A DNA stretch of 64,000 bases, taken from the NCBI GenBank assembly GCA_021324045.1, contig JAJPJV010000015.1:1-64000 (forward strand). Direction: 5' to 3'. Within the stretch, counting starts at the first letter, position 1. Every line of letters starts with the position of its first letter. Below are positions 28,643 through 32,656 of the stretch, piece after piece. Both the position numbers and the translations under genes were made by a program. Source of the DNA: Actinomycetota bacterium (GTDB lineage: Bacteria > Actinomycetota > Acidimicrobiia > Acidimicrobiales > RAAP-2). Below the pieces are notes generated by a model, which saw nothing but the letters and a program-made list of their open reading frames with translations, had not been told where the DNA came from and searched no databases.

Positions 28643-29608
28643 GTGAAGGTCGTCAGCCTGGAGGACTCCGAACAACCGACCCGGGGATCGGCGGTGACCA
28701 TCGGCGCCTACGACGGCGTTCACCTCGGTCACCGCCAGCTGATTGCCCAGCTCCGGAGGCTTGCCGGCGAACGAAACCTCGTCTCGGTCGTCGTCACCTT
28801 CGATCGCCATCCGGCAACGGTCCTCCGACCTGGCTCTGCACCTCCGCTGCTGACGGATCTCGACCAGAAGCTCGAGCTGCTCGAGCACTGCGGGGTCGAC
28901 GAGGTCCTCGTCATCCACTTCGACCGGGCCCGTTCAGAGGAGTCCGCCGAGGACTTCGTCAACGAAGTGCTCGTTCGGCGTCTCAACGCTCGGCTCGTCG
29001 TCGTGGGGGAGAACTTTCATTTCGGACACGACCGCCGCGGCGACGTGGCTCTCCTCGAGGCAATGGGAGGATCCCTGGGCTTCGAAGTGATCAGCTTGGA
29101 GATGGTCGACGTGGAGGGCCACGGTGCGGTGTCTTCGACCGTCGTCCGGCGGCTGATCGCCGCAGGGGACGTCGCCGGTGCGGCGCGGCTCCTTGGCCGC
29201 GCCCACGAGGTGCGGGGGGTCGTGGTCTCCGGCGATCGACGCGGCTCGAGGGTGCTGGGCTTCCCCACGGCCAACGTGGCGGTGGATGCCTCGATCGCGC
29301 TGCCTGCCGAAGGTGTGTACGCAGGGTGGTATGTCCGCGCCGGTACCGGGCCGTTCTCCCAGGCAACGCTGCATCCGGCAGCCATCTCGGTTGGCCGGAG
29401 GCCCACCTTCTACCGGGATCGTCCCGACGCGCAACTCGTGCTCGAAGCCCATCTCTTGGACTTCGACGACGAGCTCTACGGAGAGCGAGCGGGAGTGCGC
29501 TTCGAGGCGTGGCTGCATCCCCAGCGAGAGTTCGCCCAGGTCGACGAGCTGGTCGAGCAGATGCGCATCGACGTCGCGGCCGCGCGGGCCACCGTCGAGG
29601 CGACCTAG
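28643..29608 (+). CDS. ribF: Bifunctional riboflavin kinase / FAD synthetase
   Basis: RibF phosphorylates riboflavin to FMN and adenylylates FMN to FAD. The 321-residue protein has the nucleotidyltransferase half with TIGAYDGVHLGHRQLI and GENFHFGHDRRGD, then the kinase half with RRGSRVLGFPTANV and the VYAGWYV and YGERAGVRFEAWLHPQREF blocks. The GTG start is backed by a -10 box 9 bases upstream. No FMN riboswitch precedes it; there is no room for one. Confidence 0.95.
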   Translation: MKVVSLEDSEQPTRGSAVTIGAYDGVHLGHRQLIAQLRRLAGERNLVSVVVTFDRHPATVLRPGSAPPLLTDLDQKLELLEHCGVDEVLVIHFDRARSEESAEDFVNEVLVRRLNARLVVVGENFHFGHDRRGDVALLEAMGGSLGFEVISLEMVDVEGHGAVSSTVVRRLIAAGDVAGAARLLGRAHEVRGVVVSGDRRGSRVLGFPTANVAVDASIALPAEGVYAGWYVRAGTGPFSQATLHPAAISVGRRPTFYRDRPDAQLVLEAHLLDFDDELYGERAGVRFEAWLHPQREFAQVDELVEQMRIDVAAARATVEAT

Positions 29609-29714
29609 CGAGCCATGCCTCGCTACCCGGTGGCCTTGCGCTTCGACCGATCGCTCCGGGGCGACGGCTCGCGGGTGGTCCGCCCGTTGTGGGGGGTCGC
29701 GCGCTGGAGAGTGG

Positions 29715-29821
29715 TAGCGTAAGGGGGACGGAACTGTGGTTGCCGGTCGGATCGGCAGGTAAGGGCCTGCCCGAATCGGGACCCGCCAGCGTCAGAGGCC
29801 GGAAGGTTTCCGCACGACATC
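29715..29821 (+). promoter_or_regulatory. Putative promoter and structured leader of rpsO
   Basis: TAGCGT at 29715-29720 is a possible -10 box and would give a leader of about 95 bases. The leader holds the hairpin GGCAGG/CCTGCC (29754-29759 with 29766-29771). Its right arm overlaps a competing small stem, CCCG/CGGG (29770-29780). Alternative hairpins just before rpsO recall the S15 autoregulatory leaders known in other bacteria, though the fold matches none that I can name. Confidence 0.4.
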
Positions 29822-30079
29822 ATGACCGACAAGCGCCAGATCATCGCTGAGCACCGGTTGCACGAGACTGATACCGGGTCTCCCGAAGTGCAGATCGCGT
29901 TGTTCACCGATCGCATCAATCAGCTGACCGAGCACTTGAAGGTGCACAAGGGCGATCATCACACCCGGAGAGGGTTGATGAAGCTCATTGGCCGGCGACG
30001 TCGGCTGCTCGACTATGTCGCGGCCAACGACGTCGAGCGGTACCGTACGATCATCGGACGTCTGGGTATCCGTCGCTGA
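29822..30079 (+). CDS. rpsO: 30S ribosomal protein S15
   Basis: S15 binds the central domain of 16S rRNA and nucleates platform assembly. The 85-residue protein is full length, with [34 protein letters not shown] and the final [23 protein letters not shown]. rpsO followed by pnp is one of the most conserved bacterial gene pairs. The 213 bases before it contain a candidate leader structure. Confidence 0.97.
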
Positions 30080-30127
30080 AACCGAAGGCGCACGTTCCTA
30101 TTGTTGGGGCGGGCGAAGAGATAGATG

Positions 30128-30223
30128 GGTACCGGCAACCGGCTGCCAGTCGCCGGTCACCTCGACGTTGGTAGGTCGTGCCGACCGGAGGTGATCGACG
30201 ACTGGGAACCGGCCACGGGGACC
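30128..30223 (+). ncRNA. Long imperfect hairpin between rpsO and pnp (candidate RNase III-type pnp leader)
   Basis: The 36-base arms 30128-30163 and 30188-30223 can pair at 27 positions plus one G-U, including a run of seven and two runs of seven or more near the top. The 24-base loop folds further into a perfect GGTCG/CGACC stem (30174-30178 with 30182-30186). No T-run follows, so it is not a simple terminator. Its place matches the pnp leader stem of Escherichia coli, which RNase III cuts and PNPase then uses to repress itself. The same role here is inferred. Confidence 0.6.
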
Positions 30224-30241
30224 CACGACACAAGGAGCGCC

Positions 30242-32652
<2,411 letters not shown>

Positions 32653-32656
<4 letters not shown>

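Follow-up and report, generated by a model that had tools for sequence, protein, structure and literature searches.

What kind of element is the long hairpin that lies between the rpsO and pnp genes in the 64,000-nucleotide stretch of DNA analyzed here (the "window"), and on which of its two neighbors might it act? The first-pass annotation, made from the sequence letters, had placed it between these genes, just upstream of the pnp ribosome site, and had likened it in position and shape to the RNase III-controlled pnp leader of Escherichia coli. That placement is correct. The upstream neighbor (29822–30079) is rpsO, the gene for ribosomal protein S15 (NCBIfam TIGR00952, 126.8 bits), the downstream neighbor (30242–32656) is pnp, which encodes polynucleotide phosphorylase with its S1 domain (TIGR03591, 850 bits), and the 162-nt gap between them contains the hairpin, followed by a pnp Shine-Dalgarno AAGGAG at 30232–30237 that was recognized from the sequence and from leader alignment A1; these genes and all of the features described below are on the plus strand. 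An RNase III gene is present in the same genome (234 bits).

The start of pnp was taken as 30242, and the equivalent codon is the start in nearly all relatives. The ATG at 30125 shares the pnp reading frame, which stays open from there into the gene; a start at this codon, which a gene finder could call, would give an 843-aa PNPase whose residues 1–39 are encoded by the hairpin, but relatives, which use the codon equivalent to 30242, do not support this placement of the hairpin inside the gene. The gap 5′ of rpsO is 213 nt long (29609–29821); the rpsO leader (29690–29830) folds no better than its shuffled versions (z −0.28), and consensus searches for promoters and terminators in 29550–30300 found neither.

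The Hairpin in the Window

The two 36-base arms were recounted at 30128–30163 and 30188–30223, and the originally claimed 27 Watson-Crick pairs plus one G-U wobble proved exact. This is the best hairpin in the window: four places in the 64 kb have at least 25 of 36 pairs, the rpsO-pnp hairpin tops that list with 27, and the maximum in five first-order Markov random sequences of the same length was 25 of 36. The RNA from 30120 to 30230 (111 nt) folds with a predicted −61.3 kcal/mol, compared with −43.5 (sd 3.5) for shuffled sequences (z −5.2), and none of 200 shuffles was as stable as the native fold.

The hairpin can be divided into the following parts. An outer closing stem, P1, has its 5′ side at 30126–30134 (30126–30130 plus 30132–30134) and its 3′ side at 30216–30225 (30216–30218 plus 30221–30225); both sides are supported by the fold and the flank-swap test (below), and the 3′ side by a shuffle test as well. 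The conserved hairpin proper has a 5′ arm at 30139–30163, where covariance models R1 and R3 (below) match, and a 3′ arm at 30188–30212 that contains GACGACUGGGAACCGG; fold, alignment, covariation and pairing scan all mark these two arms, whose register is i + j = 60351 with C30146 as x = 0. Within the arms is a lower internal loop, defined from the relatives' sequences, in which CUG (30143–30145) is opposite GAA (30206–30208) and which consists of a C-A mismatch, a U-A pair and a G-G mismatch (G30145/G30206). An upper conserved mismatch, C30153/A30198, lies 8 positions above the lower G-G mismatch. The loop holds an apical stem-loop (30167–30185) that varies in length among relatives; the stem claimed earlier is indeed there, but the fold gives it 7 bp (30167–30173 with 30179–30185) rather than 5 bp.

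Conservation and Covariation in Relatives

A search of 120 related genomes for the S15 protein was positive in 116, and 80 further loci were taken from named records, mostly MAGs titled Acidimicrobiaceae, Acidimicrobiales or Actinomycetes, with PNPase identity up to 83%; these titles and this identity suggest an Acidimicrobiia bacterium as the source of the window. Both genes were present in 191 of 199 loci, which gave 151 distinct rpsO-pnp gaps, and 148 of these were used for motif analysis (gaps shorter than 50 nt were excluded). In 129 of the 148 both motif anchors of the hairpin are present, and their pattern is GUCRGCUGCCAGUNGCCG ... CGACNACUGGGAACYGGC. Covariance models were built from 50 (R1), 35 (R2) and 41 leaders (R3, to which bridging lineages were added and from which members of Rfam family RF01688, discussed below, were excluded); training leaders match these models by construction.

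The first-pass annotation had named covariation analysis as the check on its reading and a lack of covariation in relatives as the outcome that would tell against it; such a lack is not what was found, because the stem pairs do covary. We used a G-test in a gapless register with a null simulated along the PNPase protein tree (our own script, R-scape-style but not R-scape itself) on 98 non-redundant leaders drawn from 115, with 26 of the 27 pairs reported. All six column pairs at the top of the score ranking belong to the stem, and five of them have E <0.05. Two-sided changes are present in 14 of 21 pairs in alignment A2 (35 leaders), a count that none of 500 shuffles equalled. In alignment A3 (41 leaders) the corresponding count is 13 of 21; 26 of 500 shuffles equalled it, whereas none of 500 equalled the covariation score, which is therefore the stronger measure there. 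These scores are 0.45 for A2 and 0.49 for A3, versus 0.19 and 0.21 for shuffles and ≤0.14 for slid versions.

Stem cells of the 98 leaders hold G-U 221 times versus 51 times for A-C, an excess that indicates the pnp sense strand. Model R3 scores 55.1 bits on the sense strand of the window and also matches its opposite strand (40.0 bits), so the strand call rests on the G-U count and the gene context. The hairpin is near-palindromic (30137–30214 on the minus strand), and an antisense RNA would fold alike. At the mismatched sites, the lower internal loop is CUG/GAA in 63 and UCA/GAA in 15 of the 98 non-redundant relatives, and the upper site is C-A in 77 and a non-standard pair of some kind in 93 of the 98. 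There was no sign that pairing at the upper mismatch is actively avoided beyond what its column make-up gives (34 of 41 unpaired, shuffle mean 35.3). The rpsO-pnp hairpin is a real, conserved RNA structure.

Known pnp Leaders and the Role of the Hairpin

The E. coli pnp leader is said, in work by Portier, Robert-Le Meur and Jarrige, to have an RNase III site and to take part in PNPase autoregulation. It and the window both have a long stem between rpsO and pnp, and the reading of the window hairpin as such a leader is supported in part: by its position and shape, by the conservation and covariation of the RNA, by the RNase III gene of the genome and by RNase III control of the counterpart hairpin in another actinobacterium (below). 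By sequence they are separate hairpins: no similarity to the E. coli element had been claimed and none is detectable with R3, which has no match up to E 10 in E. coli NC_000913.3 3308500–3312500. (The E. coli K-12 annotation also has an antisense-strand RNA, SraG, inside its own rpsO-pnp gap.)

The first-pass annotation knew of no actinobacterial counterpart, but counterparts exist. Rfam holds the Actino-pnp RNA (RF01688; Weinberg et al. 2010), whose published taxon is Actinomycetales (PMC2864571) and which has been annotated in the pnp leader of S. lividans and mycobacteria (PMC8079986, PMC9569102). According to PMC10126417, which cites Chang 2005 and Gatewood 2011 for the hairpin work, the S. 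coelicolor rpsO-pnp hairpin has a [4/4] internal loop that RNase III cleaves on both its sides, and in an rnc null PNPase activity is 2–4 times higher and the transcripts are longer-lived. RNA-seq maps RNase III cuts upstream of pnp in S. coelicolor (PMC4681348), and the Propionibacterium acnes pnp leader has staggered cuts that the authors of that study read as of the same kind (PMC3848588). Our literature search found no paper on a pnp RNA motif or on RNase III control of pnp in Acidimicrobiia.

The S. coelicolor hairpin and that of the window are alike in place, in shape, in having mismatches or an internal loop within a long stem, and in the presence of RNase III in the genome; cleavage and regulation have been demonstrated for the former, whereas for the latter we infer cleavage, PNPase attack and autoregulation. 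RNase III control of the S. coelicolor leader and the P. acnes cuts therefore make the same role the best reading for the window, and by this analogy its hairpin is quite probably a cis-acting structured leader of the pnp mRNA that is processed by RNase III and through which PNPase autoregulates. The rpsO-pnp transcript would fold into a hairpin of ~25 bp with an outer closing stem and two conserved mismatch sites 8 positions apart, and RNase III would bind and cut this near-continuous helix. The cut would probably be at the upper mismatch, at ~30151–30154 and 30197–30200, positions guessed from the analogous internal-loop cuts in S. coelicolor. PNPase would then remove the 5′ strand released by the cut, and pnp mRNA processed in this way would be lost faster, so that PNPase would limit its own synthesis.

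Could the hairpin instead be an operator that is bound and left uncut? The 98 leaders hardly vary in CCAGU, in the G-C pair next above it or in most of CUGGGAAC, a conservation of sequence beyond pairing that such an operator would account for; its mismatches would bind PNPase (which carries an S1 RNA-binding domain), S15 or another RNA-binding protein, and translation would be blocked or the mRNA stabilized. Mismatches within a helix can also inhibit RNase III. However, the best-studied actinobacterial hairpin at the equivalent place is cut by RNase III, and the length and near-continuous pairing of the window hairpin fit that enzyme, and we consider a bound, uncut operator unlikely.

The Hairpin Flanks and the pnp Ribosome Site

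Pairing of the flanks was analyzed in 86 non-redundant leaders (from 127). Native P1 flanks bind each other better than swapped 5′/3′ partners do (z −11.3, 0 of 5000 permutations) and better than shuffled flanks (z −14.8). The sequences of relatives such as L012, L015 and L024 suggested that P1 might be part of a riboregulatory switch: once released by cutting, its 3′ strand would base-pair with the pnp Shine-Dalgarno and shut off translation. Pairing between the Shine-Dalgarno and the stretch that precedes it is indeed stronger than with swapped partners (z −3.5, 3 of 5000, 86 leaders) and stronger than with shuffled versions of that stretch (z −7.8), but the predicted accessibility of the Shine-Dalgarno in these 86 leaders is 0.43 when the hairpin is intact versus 0.44 when it is cut, and 0.64 in both states in the window. 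The pairing is above chance, but as accessibility is unchanged on cutting, the switch is very improbable and was not adopted. Separately, among the folds listed, the post-hairpin stretch of L015, L024 and L071 pairs strongly with the pnp Shine-Dalgarno in a small hairpin of its own.

Distribution and Association with pnp

In the window's own genome R1 finds one real site, at 30117–30244 in the rpsO-pnp gap (84.3 bits), and the antisense image of that site (32.3 bits); a third match (L217, E 0.94) was judged to be chance. R1 finds the element in 65 of 70 genomes of the family and in 97 of the 115 genomes of the order with an rpsO locus, some of whose leaders belong to the training set, and has no match in the remaining 18; these 115 are the 116 rpsO-positive genomes less G028, which has an rpsO fragment and was left out. 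Among the match loci that the searches of the own genome, the class and the phylum together supplied, three sets were checked for context, and 55 of 56, 30 of 30 and 18 of 20 loci in these sets are at pnp, where the set of 56 counts the window's own site twice (once antisense), the set of 30 also includes it, and these two sets overlap in some genomes. One locus in the set of 56 (L239) is on a short contig and is without rpsO. Two R2 matches (L308 and L313, of the 20 context-checked) that are not at pnp were taken as false. R3 matches 115 of 396 phylum genomes at E 0.001, and the contexts were checked for part of them.

The distance from the hairpin to pnp varies little (median 36 nt, quartiles 34–37, n = 106), whereas that from rpsO to the hairpin varies widely (median 82.5, quartiles 66.5–128.75, n = 106); the inner length of the hairpin ranges from 22 to 142 nt in 106 relatives. 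The element is tied to pnp rather than to rpsO. Long hairpins protect 3′ ends, and a hairpin located after rpsO might on that ground be thought to form the end of the rpsO mRNA, as a terminator or a barrier to 3′-5′ exonucleases with no control of pnp. This is very unlikely in light of the spacing, which is fixed relative to pnp and not to rpsO; in addition, no terminator-like site with hairpin and U run is present in 29550–30300, such a role needs no conserved internal mismatches, and many relatives, among the folds listed, have a separate GC-rich stem just past the rpsO stop. That stem, CCGCCCGGCC..GGCCGGGCGG (for example in L004, L012, L018 and L020), is perhaps the rpsO terminator of these relatives; in the window there is a weaker stem only, at 30089–30115.

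Relation to Actino-pnp RNA

Does the leader of the window belong to the Actino-pnp family? Rfam 15 finds no family at threshold in the window, RF01688 being below its gathering score of 47.7 bits there, and RF01688 has no match up to E 10 around the hairpin (29600–30400) and none in the window's own genome. Low Rfam matches in the same interval (MIR1883, sR53, VA, EAV_LTH and others) are far under their thresholds and were judged to be chance. By Rfam score the window element is no member of RF01688. Across the phylum RF01688 is over threshold in 14 of 198 genomes, and all 14 of these loci are in rpsO-pnp gaps; an RF01688 match in genome G055, at a locus (L002) where tblastn finds neither rpsO nor pnp, was judged to be chance.

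Both elements nonetheless follow rpsO and lie in the 5′ leader of pnp, and when compared side by side RF01688 and the wider family seem to have a common layout with the same spacing, namely a lower mismatch, a 5-bp helix UCRGU/AYYGA, a variable pair, an invariant G-C and an upper mismatch. The consensus itself differs, CCAGUNG / CNACUGGGAAC in the window family versus UCGGUAGUGG / UUCGAUCGAAGACC in RF01688. R3 matches 8 of the 14 RF01688 loci at exact coordinates on the pnp strand (E ≤0.002), 2 others weakly and 4 not at all, and its antisense matches on these loci are about as strong as the sense ones because the hairpins are near-palindromic. The position pattern, compared with pair-permuted hairpins, gives z values of 3.3–4.3 for sense and 3.7–4.8 for antisense. 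R1 finds none of the RF01688 elements, R2 has six matches on their loci, all on the opposite strand, and RF01688 scores 27–36 bits (below threshold) in L248, L250 and L251 on the strand opposite to pnp; these opposite-strand matches are evidence against a simple statement of homology. Taken together, the results provide moderate evidence of a common origin of the window family and RF01688, and no evidence that the window element is a member of RF01688. The leaders of L302 and L305 have an Actino-pnp-like 5′ arm, GUCCUCGGU, and a wider-family 3′ arm, CCACUGAGAACUG, and are possible bridging forms.

Significance

The function proposed here is a known one; what is new is the sequence variant, a family that the Rfam model fails to reach. 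Acidimicrobiia and other lineages of the phylum (the 115/396 genomes above) now join Actinomycetales as carriers of a covariation-supported pnp leader; the alignment and model can seed an RNA family, and the predicted cut positions are testable. We give about even chances to a broader view, in which a single pnp leader RNA would run through much of Actinomycetota with Actino-pnp as one diverged branch, the mismatches 8 apart around a fixed YCAGUNG helix would serve as a ruler for the RNase III cut, and PNPase self-control would be ancestral to the phylum. The findings suggest that actinobacteria have long used a double-stranded leader for PNPase autocontrol, with a hairpin whose sequence is unlike that of E. 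coli.
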